64,000 bases of DNA from Saccharomycopsis phalli (taxonomy: Eukaryota; Ascomycota; Saccharomycetes; Ascoideales; Saccharomycopsidaceae), in assembly GCA_020342235.1 (NCBI GenBank), contig CP073214.1, positions 1,612,001-1,676,000 of the forward strand. The letters run 5' to 3'. The notes under the pieces were generated by a model. It worked only from the letters and a program-made list of their open reading frames with translations. It ran no database searches and was not told the origin of the DNA. Within the stretch, counting starts at the first letter, position 1. Each line of letters opens with the position of its first letter. A program made the translations under genes and the position numbers. This document shows positions 3,897 to 50,820 of the stretch, piece after piece.

Positions 3897-3985
3897 CTCA
3901 GGAACATCCTGAGGCAGCATTGCTGTTGAATAAAACCCTTTATCAACCCTCAATTGGTTACTTGGGATTAAAAACTTCAATGGGA
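3897..3985 (-). mobile_element. SINE-like element, internal fragment
   Basis: Read on the minus strand, this matches the 3' half of the SINE-like element at 22920-23390. Shared landmarks are CCATTGAAGTTTTT, a run ending AAAGGGTTTT, and GCTGCCTCAGGATGTTCCTG. The tRNA-like head and the tail are absent, so this is a fragment. The same landmarks occur in the copy at 8810-8998. Confidence 0.65.
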
Positions 3986-4113
3986 CCAGTCGCATTTCAT
4001 CTTACTATAATATTAACAGTAATATTCATTACAATAACAATAATATTAATTTTTGTACTAAGCTATATATTGTCACCGGTATTACGGTTATTCGACAACT
4101 ATATTTTCATCCA

Positions 4114-8809: not shown

Positions 8810-8998
8810 TTTATGGCAGGCGCGCCATGAGGTAGTGACCAGGTTCGGGTCCCGCCAACCGTGGCGACAGGAAAGTCTCGAAAATGAGTAATGATAAACC
8901 CAACGAGACTTTCCCATTGAAGTTTTTCAGCCCATACAGCAGTCATGGGATATCAAGGGTTTTAACAATGCTGCCTTAGGGTGTTGTGAGTGAAACTA
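8810..8998 (+). mobile_element. SINE-like element, partial copy
   Basis: Aligns with the copy at 22920-23390. It has a B-box-like GGTTCGGGTCC at 8842-8852, CATGAGGTAGT before it, CCATTGAAGTTTTTCAGCCC near 8932, and GCTGCCTTAGG near 8970. The sequence between B box and middle is shorter than in the 22.9-kb copy, and the A box and tail are not recognisable. It is an older, internally deleted copy. Confidence 0.7.
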
Positions 8999-9299
8999 TA
9001 GTTGCTATACCACTGGAAAGTCACTATATTAACGTGGTGGTATACCAGTGGAAATTCAATATATTACCAGTGGTTCTATTACTGTGCCATATCACGCGAC
9101 ATTCAATATGCATCCGCACCTTCCTACAGCGTAGCAATACAGTGATTATCATTATTACATCATGAGGACTTGTTCATCAGTCTCTGAGCACGAAACACGC
9201 TCAGCCACCACCACTGGGCTCGTCTAGCCAACTGCCTCACAACATACAGGCATGCAAACTGCCGAGTCTTGGTACTACTCCAAGTCATTGCACTAGACT

Positions 9300-20361: not shown

Positions 20362-22149
20362 CTACTCCTTGTTACTAACTTTGAATCCCGACAAATCGTG
20401 AATCACCATTCCTGCAACACATGCACTCAATAATGTACTGATAGCCCCGGTTATCAATGCAGAGAATACAGTCTGTGACACTATACGTGCCTTTTTCGGA
20501 GCCAAAGTACCCAATACCCCAATTTGCGTCCCCACCGATCCAAAATTGGAAAACCCGCAAAGAGCATACGTCGCCAAAAGCTGGCCTCGTTTAGACATCG
20601 TGTTGAATGGTGCCTTGGAAATCAAATAAGTGTAGCCGTTAAACTCGTTTTCAATAAACTTAATGGCAAGCAACTCTGCAATTGGTCTCAACTCATTCCG
20701 AGGAGCCCCCAAGAGAAACGCAACAGGATACAAAAGATACCCACCCATCAACTCGAACGTCAAGCCATTGATGTTCCAGAAATTACCAAACCAGGTAAGC
20801 ACCCCGTTGAACAACGCCACAATCGAGATGATGCACAACTGATTCGTCATAATCGTACCAGCCACAACTAACCCCAAGTAGGCACCGTTAGAAAATGCAT
20901 GCAACACGTTTCGTGGCTTGTCCTCCTCAGCCAAATTTTCGTCACCGTCGGGAATCTCACAGTCACCAGCAGTAAGCGAGTTTTCCACTTCAGGGTATCG
21001 CAATTTTGACACCGCTAAAGAAGCCGGAATCGACATCACACACGAAGACACCAACGCCTGGGGATTGATTCCTAGTGCAATATATGATATAAGCACCGAC
21101 CCGGAGATTGTGGCAAATCCTGAGCACATCACCTGGTGGATCTCTGCCACAGTCAAGTAAGGCAACAAACCTTTGATAAGAATAGCAGATTCGCCAATTC
21201 CAATAAATGGAGAGGCTGCAGCAACCACAGCTTCACCTCCACTGACTTTCATTGACCAGAAAAAAAACTTGGAGAACTTCCCCGTGGCCCATTGGATGAA
21301 ACCAAGATAGAGAAGTACATAGACCACGGAAATGAAGAAGAGCACCGCGGGTAGCACAGTGAAAAAAAACATACCCAAGTTAGCGACGGAATCATTAGTA
21401 ATAAAGGCAACACCATGCTTTGCAAAGCCAAGAAACTCTTCAGACAAGTTGGATACAAACTTGAAAATATCGTACCCTGCCTTGGTACGAAGCACAAACA
21501 AGGCAATCACAAACTGCATCAACATTCCATTTATCACAGTGACCCATCTGATTTTCTTGCGGTTCGTCGACGTGAGATACAACCCAAGCAAGGCAACGAT
21601 CATTCCAAAAAACGAAATGAGCCTGTCTACCCGTCTGGAGTCTTTGGTCTCGCTGGGAACCATGGTTCCTATAAGCATCACGGCTATCGTCAAAAGTGCC
21701 CCAGAAAGAAGCCTGAATCGTTTTGGAATAACCTTGTTGCGCAAGAAAAGCATGTTACACCAAGCAGTATCCAAGAATGACATGATCCACTTCACCAAGG
21801 GAACATAGAGCGTCAAGAAGCGAAAGAATATCATAATGTATATGATGGTGGGAATCAACCAATTGTGTCTTTGTTTTGGCTGTGCAATGATACTCACCCA
21901 CCAGGCAGTAAAAAACGAAAACCAAAAGAGGTGTACTGCCCATCTCCAGCGAGGATACGAAAACCGGATTTTTTGAGCAATGGTGAGCTTCTTTACCTCA
22001 TTTTCAGCCTCGCCCTCGCCCTCGCTGACTGAGTTCTGCTCATTTTTTTCCTTGGCCTCCTTTATCTTGATAGGCTCTTCCTCTGTTATTGATGTGATTC
22101 CATGAATACCTGTGGAAAACTGGGCACCGATTTCTCGATCCTGGGACAT
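20362..22149 (-). CDS. CNT: Concentrative nucleoside transporter (CNT family)
   Basis: Plasma-membrane symporter that takes up nucleosides using a cation gradient. Candida albicans has one CNT, described as proton-coupled; baker's yeast has none. The 595-aa protein begins with a charged cytosolic tail of about 68 residues, then multiple hydrophobic segments. Family strings are ASPFIGIGESAILIKGLLPYL (CNT re-entrant hairpin with the conserved GxGE) and CGFSNFGSVGTQIGVLG (second core motif), with NQLCIISIVALFNGVLTWFG between them. Length matches fungal CNTs. The start is the only ATG before the first membrane segment, with a TATATAA box about 90 bp upstream. The assignment is firm; substrate range is not readable. 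Confidence 0.93.
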   Translation of the reverse strand: MSQDREIGAQFSTGIHGITSITEEEPIKIKEAKEKNEQNSVSEGEGEAENEVKKLTIAQKIRFSYPRWRWAVHLFWFSFFTAWWVSIIAQPKQRHNWLIPTIIYIMIFFRFLTLYVPLVKWIMSFLDTAWCNMLFLRNKVIPKRFRLLSGALLTIAVMLIGTMVPSETKDSRRVDRLISFFGMIVALLGLYLTSTNRKKIRWVTVINGMLMQFVIALFVLRTKAGYDIFKFVSNLSEEFLGFAKHGVAFITNDSVANLGMFFFTVLPAVLFFISVVYVLLYLGFIQWATGKFSKFFFWSMKVSGGEAVVAAASPFIGIGESAILIKGLLPYLTVAEIHQVMCSGFATISGSVLISYIALGINPQALVSSCVMSIPASLAVSKLRYPEVENSLTAGDCEIPDGDENLAEEDKPRNVLHAFSNGAYLGLVVAGTIMTNQLCIISIVALFNGVLTWFGNFWNINGLTFELMGGYLLYPVAFLLGAPRNELRPIAELLAIKFIENEFNGYTYLISKAPFNTMSKRGQLLATYALCGFSNFGSVGTQIGVLGTLAPKKARIVSQTVFSALITGAISTLLSACVAGMVIHDLSGFKVSNKE

Positions 22150-22907: not shown

Positions 22908-22919
22908 TAAGAAAACCCC

Positions 22920-23390
22920 GGGGGCAGGAGGTTTGGCCGAATGGAAAACACCTCATGCCTTATGGAGGGCGCATCATGAGGTAGTTACCGGGTTCGAGCC
23001 CCACCAAACCGCCCCAATACTCAAGAAAGTCTCCAGAAAGAGCACACTACGCCTCAGAAGGGCAATACAAGGAAGTCTCGCAAACGAGCAATGAACGACC
23101 CCGACGAGTCGTGCGCCCATCGTCACGAGATTCAGCGGCCGGATAGCGCCGGCATTTAGCCGAAGGATGGCCAGGCTTCTCGCATAACCAATAGCCAGTC
23201 ACGTTAAACCACTAACAACACTGCTCCCATTGAAGTTTTTCAGCCCATATAACCGTTTGGGGTTATAAAGGGTTTTCTTCAATAGAATGCTGCCTCAGGA
23301 TGTTCCTGAGTGAAAATATATCTGTCGAATCACCGTGTTTCCGGAGACAATATATAGCTAAATACAGAACTAAATATACTTAACTTAACT
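22920..23390 (+). mobile_element. tRNA-derived SINE-like element with 12-bp target-site duplication
   Basis: TAAGAAAACCCC at 22908-22919 and 23391-23402 exactly flanks 471 bp. The left part resembles a class II tRNA: complementary ends GGTTTGG (22930-22936) and CCAAACC (23004-23010) enclose an A box TGGCCGAATGG and a B box GGTTCGAGCCC. T-stem pairing is imperfect, so it is tRNA-derived, not a tRNA gene. A unique body follows, then CGGAGACAATATATAGCTAA and a short repetitive end (ACTTAACTTAACT). Related partial copies are at 3897-3985, 8810-8998 and 50759-50820. Head, body, tail and duplication together fit a SINE. The mobilising enzyme is inferred to be the resident LINE. Confidence 0.82.
22934..23001 (+). 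promoter_or_regulatory. Internal RNA polymerase III promoter (A and B boxes)
   Basis: A box TGGCCGAATGG at 22934-22944 (consensus TGGCNNAGTGG, one mismatch) and B box GGTTCGAGCC at 22991-23000 (full match to GGTTCGANNCC). Spacing of 57 nt between starts suits a class II tRNA-like promoter. Confidence 0.7.
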
Positions 23391-23402
23391 TAAGAAAACC
23401 CC

Positions 23403-24616: not shown

Positions 24617-26409
24617 CTAATAAGCATGAAGCCCTAGTCTTACCAATTCCTCAATCCATGTCATCCCATTTTTGGAAAAAGCCTTTGGCTTGGTAAACAT
24701 GTCGGCTTGCTGATCAGCTGACGGGATGTATCGCAACTCTAACCTGTCATCATCCGCAAGCTGCTGTATTTTACTCCAGTATGTTGCGTACTTCATTTGG
24801 CCGGCTTTAGCCCTGCCAACCTTTGCTAGCGCAGGCTGACAGTCCACATACGCAGTAATCTTTTCTCGACACCTGAAATCATTCTCGTCCTTTCCTTGCA
24901 CTCTTGTTCGTTGTTCCACCCCCATGGCATCAAGAAATAAGTTAATGTAGTCTTCAACCTCCTCAGCAACATTAGATCCATCAAAAAGAGCCTGGATTTC
25001 GGTTTCTGTTGTGGATCCTGCCTGCCTTTCAGTTCTATCAGTTTTCCACGCTACTGGCACGCCGTAGACCTTTACCACATAACCATAGTATGAAGTCATG
25101 TAACTGGGTAATATTTCGTTCTTTTCTCCAAGGAAAGAAGCGTCCGAATACAATTCAATTCTCGTTGGACGATCTCTTGGTTTGATTTTAATGCCAAACG
25201 ATTGGGTATTTAGATAATAATGCATGGCATCTCTGACTTTATACCATACCTCGGGATATTTTGTTTGGGCCATTGATGATAGATAGCATGCAACAAAACT
25301 TAGATCAGGGCGACAAGATCCTTGTATTATATCCAAAGTTTCTGTATACTTGTAAAAATTATCTGGATCACTTTCTTTACTGGTCGGCCTAAGCTTTACG
25401 TACAGCAGAATCGGTACCTGTGTCGTTTTACGTGATGGGACGGGACATAACTCCGGAAGTAAACTTTCGTCTTCCTGTTCGCGGCACATAATCAAACCGC
25501 TACGGCACTGGAATGATGTCTCGGTATCTTCATCGGGGTCCATCTTCTTAAGGTCAATACCTAGCAAACGTTTGGGGAACCCTAGTATCGTCAATTCTAT
25601 CTTCTCGCCCAATCTATCCAAAAAATCAAAGGCTTCAGAGCGATTCTTTGACACAACTAAGACGTCGTCCATGTAAATTATCACAATCATAGTCTTTGCA
25701 GAATTCTTGTATACTGATTTTAGAACTGGAGCAATCTCTGACATATCCAACTCTTTTAAAATTTTGTTAAAGTGATCATAACACGCCTTCGTACTCTCTT
25801 TCAATCCGTAAATTGATCTCTTGATCTTTAACCCAAGTTTATATCCAGCTATCGGTCGGATCTTTAACATTTCAATCACTTCTCTAGGCGGATGTACAAT
25901 AATGTTGGTACCTTCAGGAAGCCTAGCGTCTAAGCCCGCTGTATTGACATCAGCTTGAATGAGGTGCCAGCCTTCTTTGATTGCTAACGTTAAAAGCACT
26001 CTAATCGGTGTTGGTTTGACTGTTGGGGAATACACGTCTCTCTCCACACTATATTCCGGATAATGCCTAACATTATTTGCTTTCAACACCAATCGACTCT
26101 TGTAAACATTTTCAGTCTTTTTCTTATCCTCCCATCTAATTCTTGTAAGTTTCGTTTCCTTTGGTACAACAATTGGTTCAAATGTATTGTAGACATGGTG
26201 TGAGAATAGTTCCTTGTCCCTTGCTTCTTGTCTTTTAGCAGGGTCAAAATATTCTATCATTTCATAGTATTGGTTGAGTAACGCTTGTTTCCCATCGACA
26301 TATAGCTGGTGCCGCAATCTCTTCGGCGCCCGACTAATGAGTCCATTGCTCCTGTTAACAGTCGGAAACTTTAGGGCATTCAGTGATTCAATGATCAGAT
26401 CAGGTTCTC

Positions 26410-26990
26410 CCATAGCCTTGCGCTTCGCTCTGGTAATTGTATCAGGTTCTGTCACAGTCTTATGCCTTTCTTCAACAATTGTATCAGGTTTTGGCTCAGT
26501 CTTATGCTTCGCTCTGGTAATTGTATCAGGTTCTGGCACAGTCTTATGCTTCGCTTCAACAATCATATCAGGCTCTGGCATAGTCTTATGCTTCGCTTCA
26601 ACAATCGTATCAGGCTCTGGCATAGTCTTATGCTTCGCTTCAACAATCGTATCAGGCTCTGGCACAGTCTTATGCTTCGCTTCAACAATCGTATCAGGTT
26701 CTGGCACAGTCTTGTGCTTTGCTTCAACAATTGGATCAGGTTCTGTCATAGTCTTGTGCTTTGCTTCAACAATCGGATCAGGTTCTGTCATAGTATTGTG
26801 CTTTGCTTCAACAATCGGATCAGGTTCTGTCATAGTCTTCTGCTTTGCTTCAACAATTGGATCAGATTTTGTCATAGTCTTGTGCTTTGCTTCAACAATC
26901 GGATCAGGTTCTGTCATAGTCCTGTGCTTTGCTTCAACAATTGAATCAGATTTTGTCATAGTCTTGTTCTTTCGCTCAACAGATGGACCA
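26410..26990 (-). repeat. In-frame 42-bp tandem repeat inside the copia element
   Basis: About 14 copies of a 14-codon unit (EAKHKTM-EPD-IV) between integrase and reverse transcriptase. The register is constant, so it extends the protein without breaking the frame. Confidence 0.93.
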
Positions 26991-28539
26991 GGCTCCGATA
27001 CTATCCTACGGTTCGGTTCGTAGTGCAAATTTGGGTTGTCACCTTCTTCGAGAATTTCCTCGCCATCTATATTGAATTCGTATCCTCTTATACGTCTTCG
27101 AAGAACTGGTGGTAGACTCCGAAAGGCTGGGAACTTTCTACCTGGTGGTAAAGTAGCCATTGGAAGTATTCTTTTTGCAAAGTCAAATGAAACATCAGAA
27201 CAAAAGTACCGCTTACCCGTTGACCCGTCTTCAATAACGTATCCTGCTTGATTCTTTCGGCATCCTAAGAACCTGCCTTGCCGGGAAGGAGTATGGCGAT
27301 TTGACCTTTCCACATTTCCACGATAATAGTATACCTTTGTCCCAAAAGGTTGGAACGATTGTTTGCTAATTTTCTTGATTCGCGCCTCCCCATAGTGTCT
27401 TGTGAATGGAATATATCCATCAGGGAATTTCGGTAGTCTATTATACAGGTATACCACATGGTCCAAAATATCCTCAAGGTAATTTGCAACCAACGCATCG
27501 TTCAGTATTCTCCACTTTGGCAGATCTTCATCTCCTCTCAAGCTGGCAATGACGTTCTTCGTTCTATCCCTCACTATTTGGGCAAATCGCTCAATGAACC
27601 TTGTATTTTGCAAAGAAGTAGAGGGCACATCAATGAGTTCGATGTGGTTCTTTACAAGAAACTTTTCCAAGGTTTTAAAACCAAACGCAACGCGTTTATC
27701 AATGAACAAGCTTTTAAACCCAAGCAGCAACACATTCTCAATGACCAGCTGGGCAGCAGCCTTAGTAGGAATTCTAATGGCATCAATCACAGTACTATAT
27801 TCATCAACCATTACTAGAATTATAGCTTTGCCGAACCAAATCAAAGTAACAAATAATGTGTGGCATGGAACAGTAGCAGCCACATGACCTGGCTTCTTTG
27901 GCGTTGCATCTGTAGAAGTTCCTTTTAGACATGTAGAGCATTGGACTTTGGAAGACATTAAGATTTTGATTTCATTCGGCGAAAGATGATATACTTCAGC
28001 GTGCTTTATCAATTTGGCAGAATCCGTATGTCCATATAGTTGATGAATATGTAGTGCCTCCATATCGAACTCGCCGGCGTTTGCTTCAGGCAAAGATACA
28101 ATATCTCTGTTTAATTTCATATAAAGCAATCCCTTAGGTGTAGTGAACAAAGGAGTCTTCTTCTCCCTAAACATTATATGTGGATTGTTCATTGGTAAAA
28201 TTGGAATAACCTCTTCATTAGTAATCACATCTTTGTGAGCAAGAATTGATAGGTCACATCCAATGTCCTCCTTTTTTATGTGGTAACCCCTAATTGTGAT
28301 CGCCAGATCTCCCAAAGGAATACTGATAATTCCCGGACCAACAGCTCTAATGATTTCATTTCTTAGTACTTGGCATTGAATAATCTCGTCGTTGAGGTTT
28401 TCAAATAAATTTTTGTTAGTACTAAGAGTCACGTCAGCACCGGTATGATAAAGTAACATATTCGGCTCCACCCCTTCCAACTTTAATTCATCAATAGCGC
28501 AATTGAAGATTTTCGTGCCCTTAGTATTTGTCGTACTTT

Positions 28540-29350
28540 TCAGACTCTCACGATGCTTAACCTCCTTCTGTATCGCAATTTCCAACTCTCTTTGCTTAGC
28601 AGCCTCCAATTCTTTCTGTTTAACTGCTTCCAACTCTCTTTGCTTAGCAGCCTCCAATTCTTTCTGTTTAACTGCTTCCAATTCTCTTTGTTTAGCAGTC
28701 TCCAATTCTTTCTGTTTAACTGCTTCCAACTCTCTTTGCTTAGCAGCCTTCAATTCTTTCTGTTTAGCTGCTTCCAATTCTCTTTGTTTAGCAGCTTCCA
28801 ACTCTCTTTGTCTAACTGTTTCCAATTCTCTTTGCTCCAATTCTTTCCGTCTAGCTGTTTCCAATTCCTTCTGTCTCGCAATTTCCAACTCTCTTTGTCT
28901 AGCTGCTTCTAATTCCTTCTGTCTCGCAATTTCCGACTCACTTTGTCTGGCAGTTTCCATCTCTCTTTGCTTAACAATTTTCAACTCTTTCTGTCTAGCA
29001 GCTTCCAACTCTCTTTGCTTGGCAACTTCCAAGTCACTCCGCTTAACAACTTCCAAGTCACTCCGCTTAACAACTTCCAACTCTTTCTGGCTATCAGTTT
29101 CTAACTCTCTCTTTCTAGCAATTTCTAACTCTCTCTGTCTAGCAGCTTCCAAGTCACTTAGTCTAGCGGCATCACGCTCTCTTTGTCTGGCAGTCTCCAA
29201 CTCTCTCTGTCTAGCAGCCTCAAAATCTCTCTGTCTAGCAGCTTCCATCTTTCTCTGTCTAGCAATTTCCAAGTCGCTCTGCTTAACAACTTCCAAGTCA
29301 CCCTGCTTGGCAATTTCCGACGCCTTCTGCCTAGCGGCCTTCAACTCTTT
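28540..29350 (-). repeat. In-frame coiled-coil repeat inside the copia element
   Basis: Dozens of 8-codon, 24-bp units of the type ELEAAKQR/KELEAVKQ, predicted to be a long charged helix. It lies between the zinc-knuckle region and the protease-like region. Confidence 0.9.
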
Positions 29351-30663
29351 TTGTCGAACAACAGTGCACTCATTAATGGTATGTAATCCCCGCTTACCAC
29401 AACCCTCGCATCTCCGAGGTACACTATTCCTAGAAGTTCTTGACTCTTTCTGTCTAACAACAGTGCATTCATTAATAGTGTGCAATCCTCGTTTGCCACA
29501 ACCTTCACATTTCCGAAGGACATTACCATTTTGCCTACTGTACTTCGGGTCTTTCAGTCTAGCAATAGTGCATTCATTAATAGTGTGGCTTCCCCATTTA
29601 CCACAACCCTCGCATCTCCGACTGGTTTTACGATTCAGTCTAGCTGGGAATTTCGGGTTAGTCTTCAATCTTGGAGTGAAGTCTGCCTTCTGACTAGCGG
29701 ACTTTGAGGATACCTTGTCTTCATCAGATTCCCATTTAGCACCGCTGCGGGATCTAGTATGGGATGCACCGCTGTCTTCACGCGAAACTTTGAAAGAATC
29801 GGAGCGACTGTACCAGTTGGCCGAACATAGTTTGCTTTCTATACTGTTTTCATGTTCTGTGCTGCTAGAGTAGTGTTTCACCCTAGCTATTCTCTCATCA
29901 AGCCCTTTTTCAGGTCGAACGACCAACAAGGACGAGCTCCCTTGGTTATTTCGTGTTTCTCGACTGGAACTTTGGGGACGGTAGTGGTCATACACAGGGC
30001 GCCCTTCATTCCGATTATTATATATATCGGTTGATTTACTCATGGTAATTAAGATCACCGGTATAAAATCCTGGACTTCTTTGCTTGCGTATCTTTGTGT
30101 TTGCAAAATTACAATGTGGTTCTATTATCAATCAACGGGGGGAAAGGATTATTTATTTTATATAGCATGGGCCTCGCAGTCCGTTGCACAAAAGGGGTGA
30201 GGGTGGTGCATGACGCGGAAATGTACGTATCACATATATTACACAAGTTTATGAGACATTGGTTACAAATTAGCCCAGACTATAGGAAAGGAATGCTTGT
30301 ATTATTACATAGTTTAGTTATTTGGTGTAGGGATATAAAAAATATTTAAATCCTCGTGTGGTTCATATGATGTCTGGAAGGGCCAAGTCGACGTAGTCAT
30401 GTGACGAAACAAGTACTGCCCAAGACGGGACTTGTGGGCGAGCATGGTAAATTCTACGGCACTTCAAATGAGGCAACGGAATCCTCAAATGCTGGTATCT
30501 CACAATTTTTCCGGAAGAATAGTGGGTCACAGTATAATAGTGTGATGAGTTCTGGCCGATGGACGGATTTAATCACCTATTCGTCTGATTAATCAATACC
30601 AAGCAAAGCAAACAGTCGTTGGAAGTTCCATGTGACATGTACATATATATATCATGGTTAATG

Positions 30664-50758: not shown

Positions 50759-50820
50759 TTTATTCGTCGAATAACCGTGATGCCGGAGACAGTATAGCTA
50801 AATACAATAAATATTATTAT
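50759..50820 (+). mobile_element. SINE-like element, 3' end only
   Basis: ATTCGTCGAATAACCGTG, CCGGAGACAGTATAGCTAA, then ATACAATAAATATTATTAT. It matches the end of the element at 22920-23390 (TCGAATCACCGTG, CCGGAGACAATATATAGCTA) but has an ATT tail like the LINEs. ATTTCAG (50752-50758 and 50821-50827) flanks it, a possible 7-bp target duplication. Confidence 0.65.

Follow-up and report, generated by a model that had tools for sequence, protein, structure and literature searches.

A probable tRNA-type SINE and its candidate partner LINE in the budding yeast Saccharomycopsis phalli

A 64,000-nt stretch of the Saccharomycopsis phalli genome (contig CP073214.1, positions 1,612,001 to 1,676,000; hereafter the window) contains, at 22908-23402, a short segment bracketed by a direct repeat, which a first-pass annotation made from the sequence alone read as a tRNA-derived SINE. 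The locus raises the question of whether this segment is indeed a SINE and, if so, what might transcribe it and what might have moved it. The host belongs among the budding yeasts of its genus: the NAD-glutamate dehydrogenase encoded in the window matches that of Saccharomycopsis crataegensis at 74%, the closest named relative among the best 120 of 8,000 scored candidates, within which two relatives without names are closer (83 and 77%).

Anatomy of the window copy and its head

The element is framed by an exact 12-bp duplication, TAAGAAAACCCC, one copy of which occupies 22908-22919 and the other 23391-23402, just as the first-pass annotation had stated; these and all other features of the window copy are on the + strand. 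A single extra G separates the upstream duplication from the start of the element in this copy. The SINE core of 458 bp (22921-23378) follows, and then the short repetitive tail that had also been described, CTTAACTTAACT (23379-23390), the unit and length of which differ among copies. Within the core, a 95-nt Pol III-type promoter head (22921-23015), starting family-wide with GGGGCAGGAGG, is joined to a SINE-specific body (23016-23167), for which neither a BLASTN match in the LINE discussed below nor an Rfam family at the cut-off was found, and to a 3′ part (23168-23377) in common with the 3′ end of that LINE. An internal T5 run, a possible premature Pol III terminator, is located at 23236-23240, and a hairpin, CTCAGGA-TGT-TCCTGAG, at 23294-23310. 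The ORF list of the window holds no ATG-started ORF of at least 100 aa within 22908-23402, and the element, being short and without coding capacity, is in these respects like a tRNA-type SINE (SINE2).

A pattern search of the genome located both promoter boxes of the head, perfect in sequence: TGGCCGAATGG at 22934-22944 is the A box, and GGTTCGAGCCC at 22991-23001 is the B box. Lying near the 5′ end and at tRNA spacing, they have the arrangement expected of an internal Pol III-type promoter. The further description of the head as class II tRNA-like holds for the boxes and their spacing and finds no support beyond them: ARAGORN (run with the bacterial code) called no tRNA in the window, and the head gave no match to the Rfam tRNA model at E up to 10, whereas four of four control tRNA genes of this yeast, likewise cut at their A box, did match, three of them above the curated cut-off and the fourth under it. 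The predicted fold of the head is one long hairpin and not a cloverleaf (-41 kcal/mol, z -2.68, with 0 of 200 shuffles as low). When 14 tRNA types of the same genome, with types and anticodons named by our own reading of the sequences, were aligned to the head as possible sources, none rose beyond the effect of the boxes themselves (best z 1.8, for an Arg-like type), which leaves a parent of the tRNA-Leu or tRNA-Ser kind without support.

The tRNA genes of this yeast include three loci with an apparent CAG anticodon (C3:1181421-1181492, C5:1553999-1554070 and C7:1518973-1519044), in which, by our reading, the loop is CACAGAG, position 33 is not a U and an insert resembles an intron; the one compared with the Rfam model, L087, is below its cut-off. 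All three appear similar to the tRNA-Ser(CAG) known from the CUG-Ser2 clade; this clade, according to the accessible part of its description, comprises only Ascoidea and Saccharomycopsis (PMC5951914).

Two neighbours flank the window copy. A Ty1/copia-like element lies beside it at 24617-30043 (- strand), with a single open frame of 1,808 aa containing RVT_2, and on the other side a gene for a Nucleos_tra2-type nucleoside transporter (20362-22149, - strand) has its start about 0.8 kb from the SINE insertion.

Copies and insertion marks across the genome

A DNA search of the genome (14.15 Mb in eight contigs) yielded at least 43 matches to the element, with 40 of 317 candidates scored. Genome-wide, 45 places carry an A box and a B box at a tRNA-like distance, compared to none for the reversed pattern, and a reading of the listed sequences divides them into 34 SINE copies and 11 tRNA genes. 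In line with this count, a 31-base word from the SINE-only body has 36 exact and two near matches in the genome (control, 0). Rather than only the four pieces seen in the window, the genome thus holds 34 box-bearing copies of the SINE.

We read 35 recent loci (L001-L030 and L064-L068), the window copy included. The 458 bp of L002 are kept letter for letter in 30 of them, while the window copy and L013 each show one private change and L066 shows two; L067 is 5′-truncated, missing the first 24 nt and otherwise identical to L002, and L068 is 96.5% identical to the L002 core. Both boxes are retained in 34 of the 35 loci, the remaining one being the truncated copy. Compared to the 34 youngest loci (L001-L030 and L064-L067), the L002 sequence differs by four substitutions in ~15.5 kb, that is, ~3 in 10,000. 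Such near-zero divergence indicates recent amplification, though it should be taken as a crude sign of very recent spread, as gene conversion could also lower divergence. Older copies (L069-L073), with identities of 95, 84, 83, 79 and 76%, point to a longer history of the SINE family.

The flanks differ between copies, and most copies are enclosed by a duplication of their own. Duplications were scored in 33 of the 35 loci, excluding L008, in the flanks of which none was recognisable, and L067, where the anchor is missing. An own exact flank repeat of at least 11 bp was found in 29 of the 33, and a swapped-flank control reached this length in 0 of 1,056 pairs (longest, 10 bp). The loci below 11 bp in the script windows were L005 (5 bp), L016 (8 bp), L065 (7 bp) and L066 (3 bp); reading by eye past an extra 5′ piece gives duplications of 10 bp for L005 and 11 bp for L066, and the truncated L067 has one of 13 bp. 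The tails vary as well, both in unit (CTTAA, CTTAT or CTTA) and in length, and in several copies the tail is prolonged by the opening bases of the duplication (e.g. AAC or TTA), as pairing of the nicked target with the tail would predict.

The extra 5′ piece repeats the initial 17-25 nt of the element and is present in three of the 35 loci (L005, L022 and L066), perhaps through re-copying at the 5′ end of the RNA.

Two further types of evidence come from the sites themselves. The SINE at L005 sits within a LINE copy that is 95-96% identical to the whole LINE copies L061-L063, and L061 provides the corresponding empty site, with a single target, no SINE and one of ten target bases differing. 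Moreover, among 30 loci scanned for junction frames, of which five were translated, three (L020, L025 and L029) have frames open on both sides of the SINE, with the residues of the duplication common to both. In L020, an aspartyl protease is recognisable on both sides; in L025, a cytochrome P450 is found on one side and the other side has no match, and in L029 neither side matches Pfam. We take the duplications, the empty site and the interrupted open frames as marks of recent target-primed insertion.

These marks also bear on the proposal that the family is an old dispersed repeat, homogenised by gene conversion or multiplied through segmental duplication. The very high identity among copies and the repeats surrounding several of them would suit such an origin, yet it accounts poorly for differing flanks with own duplications, for an empty site in the LINE, for insertions within frames that are still open and for tails that differ in unit and length, and we give it next to no credence; gene conversion could still add to the identity of the young copies. 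The SINE reading is better served by these data: the first-pass annotation had suggested looking for several complete copies with differing duplications and a common head, and the genome search found them in dozens, with no member starting upstream of the head and lacking duplications among the copies read.

A LINE family with the same 3′ end

From 91 reverse-transcriptase matches, 30 loci were cut out, 12 of them LINE-type, and the SINE 3′ part was matched in nine of these 12 (L049-L057); the cut-out of the other three may stop before the end of the element. Eight of the nine show 81-82% identity to the SINE over 216 columns, and L049 shows 84.5% over 155. Against the 3′ end of three whole LINE copies (L061-L063), the last 210 bp of the SINE are 82% identical over 216 columns, with the last ~95 nt nearly identical and the 7-bp hairpin at 23294-23310 spelled with the same letters in the SINE/LINE alignment. 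A 31-base word bearing this hairpin is found at 170 genome places within three mismatches (control, 0), of which roughly 40 would be SINE copies and the remainder, by subtraction, mostly LINE ends.

The three whole copies of this LINE of ~5.05 kb are 99.88-99.98% identical over ~5.07 kb; they end in TTA tails, and each is enclosed by a duplication of its own (13-15 bp). Their ORF2 encodes 1,117 aa with Exo_endo_phos_2 and RVT_1 domains, whereas ORF1 (485 aa) has no Pfam match; the ORF1 frame is open in L061 and L063 and broken in L062. LINE copies with an intact endonuclease and reverse transcriptase are thus present in the same genome. A search with the LINE protein returned 61 relatives, mostly without names (best identity 29%) and several with an RNase H domain, and comparison with solved structures returned R2-type, group II intron-type and a few other reverse transcriptases, along with one unrelated designed protein. 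In an L1-clade LINE, as Ylli and Zorro are, a poly(A) tail and an L1-type reverse transcriptase would be expected; with these relatives and a TTA tail, the present LINE may belong to that clade or to another. In all three copies, just a few nt precede the start codon of ORF1, leaving almost no 5′ UTR.

The repeat tails are short in both elements and differ in unit, being of the CTTAA type in the SINE and TTA in the LINE. Two old SINE copies (L071 and L072) run into TTATTA-like, hence LINE-like, tails, which suggests that the SINE and the LINE may have been paired for long.

Other LINE-type sequences were also noted. A second family (L058-L060) has frames of 1,139-1,152 aa and is 66-71% identical to the first LINE over parts of its length; no SINE match was found within ~1.5 kb on each side of its reverse-transcriptase matches, a span that may miss the 3′ end. 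Likewise, L076-L079 gave no SINE match in the 2.1 kb of each, a stretch that may stop short of the 3′ end; with the partner LINE they show 76-79% identity in two short matches.

The LINE also helps to sort the three further pieces of the window that had been reported as related to the element. All three exist, and one of them is an old, decayed SINE copy (8811-9000, + strand). Two significant segments of this piece align with bases 41-88 and 306-401 in the query 22920-23392, the SINE-only head being the source of one, and a third, at 148-175, is weak (E 0.086). Another, in two pieces on the - strand (3897-3990 and 4043-4109, within 3897-4109), is closer to the LINE (92.6 and 86.6%) than to the SINE (87.2 and 82.1%) and is thus a 3′ remnant of the partner LINE family. 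The last (50766-50813, + strand), at 86% to both, is a tail remnant of either the LINE or the SINE.

With ~46% of its length (210/458 bp) LINE-like, the element might be viewed not as a SINE at all, and instead as a LINE derivative, formed by deletion, in which the 3′ end was retained and unrelated DNA was acquired. Such a derivative would not be expected to lack the LINE 5′ end altogether, nor to have a first 247 nt without any BLASTN match in the LINE and with both boxes preserved in all recent loci save the truncated one, and we regard this origin as highly improbable. The SINE reading is, on the contrary, strengthened by the common 3′ end, of which the first-pass annotation had no knowledge. 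Since identical copies, own duplications, an empty site, a shared 3′ end and an intact LINE occur together, they are best explained by a recently mobile SINE and a partner LINE. We consider it very likely that the element is a non-autonomous SINE with a tRNA-type Pol III promoter, mobilised by the LINE with which it shares its 3′ end.

Transcription, mobilisation and comparison with known pairs

The duplications, the variable tails, the truncated copy, the empty site, the common 3′ end and the intact LINEs can be read directly from the genome, and from this anatomy we infer Pol III transcription, capture of the RNA via hairpin and tail, and priming on the tail repeats. The A and B boxes, both within the first 81 nt, would drive a Pol III RNA of ~460 nt. 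The 3′ end of this RNA, with its hairpin and short repeat tail, would mimic that of the LINE, so that the LINE protein may take the SINE RNA instead of its own. The protein would then nick the target, the cut end could pair with the tail repeats, and the SINE RNA would be reverse transcribed at the nick, as in target-primed reverse transcription.

The internal T5 bears on the first of these steps, as it could cut Pol III transcripts short. In four of the 20 tRNA genes compared (L081, L083, L084 and L085), the T run of at least four that comes first after the gene is a T5, and no T5 follows within 130 bases past the 458-bp core in 26 of 30 copies (the count was repeated on 29 copies, with L008 left out). 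Early stops and long read-through would therefore be expected of a Pol III RNA. It could thus be argued that the LINE mobilises the element by way of a Pol II or read-through transcript, with the boxes as mere relics: the internal run has the length at which some tRNA genes of this yeast appear to end, a Pol III RNA would often extend far past the tail, and the head is not tRNA-like apart from the boxes. Relics, however, would hardly remain exact for both boxes at 34 places, nor would the copies be expected to begin uniformly at a G-rich start that precedes the A box by 13 nt. The Pol III start is expected near such a distance upstream of the A box, and transcription from other promoters appears to us quite unlikely. 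Within the preferred reading of a Pol III-transcribed SINE mobilised by the LINE, we also entertain a more specific version, in which the SINE is mobile today, its head is a Pol III promoter contained in one long hairpin rather than a decayed tRNA, and full-length RNA requires read-through of the T5; taken as a whole, this version is rather doubtful.

If this more specific version held, the SINE and the LINE would together make up a complete SINE/LINE system, housed in a compact yeast genome. To our knowledge, work on the choice of SINE RNA by LINE proteins and on the limits that hosts set on it has dealt mostly with animal cells. With a natural, recently active pair in a 14-Mb yeast, both partners, the host factors and the insertion sites would become accessible to yeast genetics.

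In the literature on Saccharomycotina that we searched, which lacks most subscription papers and hence gives a weak negative, no SINE family was found to be described together with a partner LINE. The accessible text of a study on Yarrowia speculates on tRNA-gene dimers and SINEs (PMC5014426), and a repeat summary for Brettanomyces counts five SINEs, with no family described in the part available (PMC6493715). The word SINE was not found in the searched text of two Saccharomycopsis genome papers, and the assembly paper of Saccharomycopsis schoenii, as far as its accessible text goes, searched specifically for LTR elements (PMC13148404). This suggests that SINEs of Saccharomycotina may have been overlooked.

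Pairs of SINEs and LINEs with a shared 3′ end are known from animals, plants and moulds, and the LINE Zorro of Candida albicans is a non-LTR element with endonuclease and reverse transcriptase. Several filamentous fungi have SINEs, according to the available part of a report on Aspergillus (PMC5063351); as fungal SINEs of like anatomy exist, the kind of element described here is already known. In that source, the 3′ part of AfuSINE2-1a of Aspergillus fumigatus resembles the 3′ UTR of the LINE I-1_AF of the Tad clade. By its description, AfuSINE2-1a is like our element in having a tRNA-type promoter head, a LINE-like 3′ part and a short repeat tail (ACT in that case), and differs from it in copy number (at least four by Southern blot, compared to more than 30 here) and in host, which is a filamentous fungus there and a budding yeast here. 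MgSINE of Magnaporthe grisea, known to us through its citation in the same source (472 bp, ~100 copies; PMC5063351), is similar in length, in its fungal host and in its tRNA-derived class. With stringent SINE/LINE pairs, as outlined in the accessible text of PMC3747384, the present pair has in common the shared 3′ end, the hairpin and the short repeat tail, although here the tail units of SINE and LINE differ and the pairing is proposed from sequence. Finally, Ylli of Yarrowia lipolytica is, like our LINE, a budding-yeast non-LTR element with endonuclease and reverse transcriptase, for which the available part of its description gives poly(A) tracts and no known target duplications (PMC5014426), whereas the LINE of S. 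phalli ends in TTA repeats, is flanked by duplications of 13-15 bp and is accompanied by a SINE with the same 3′ end.
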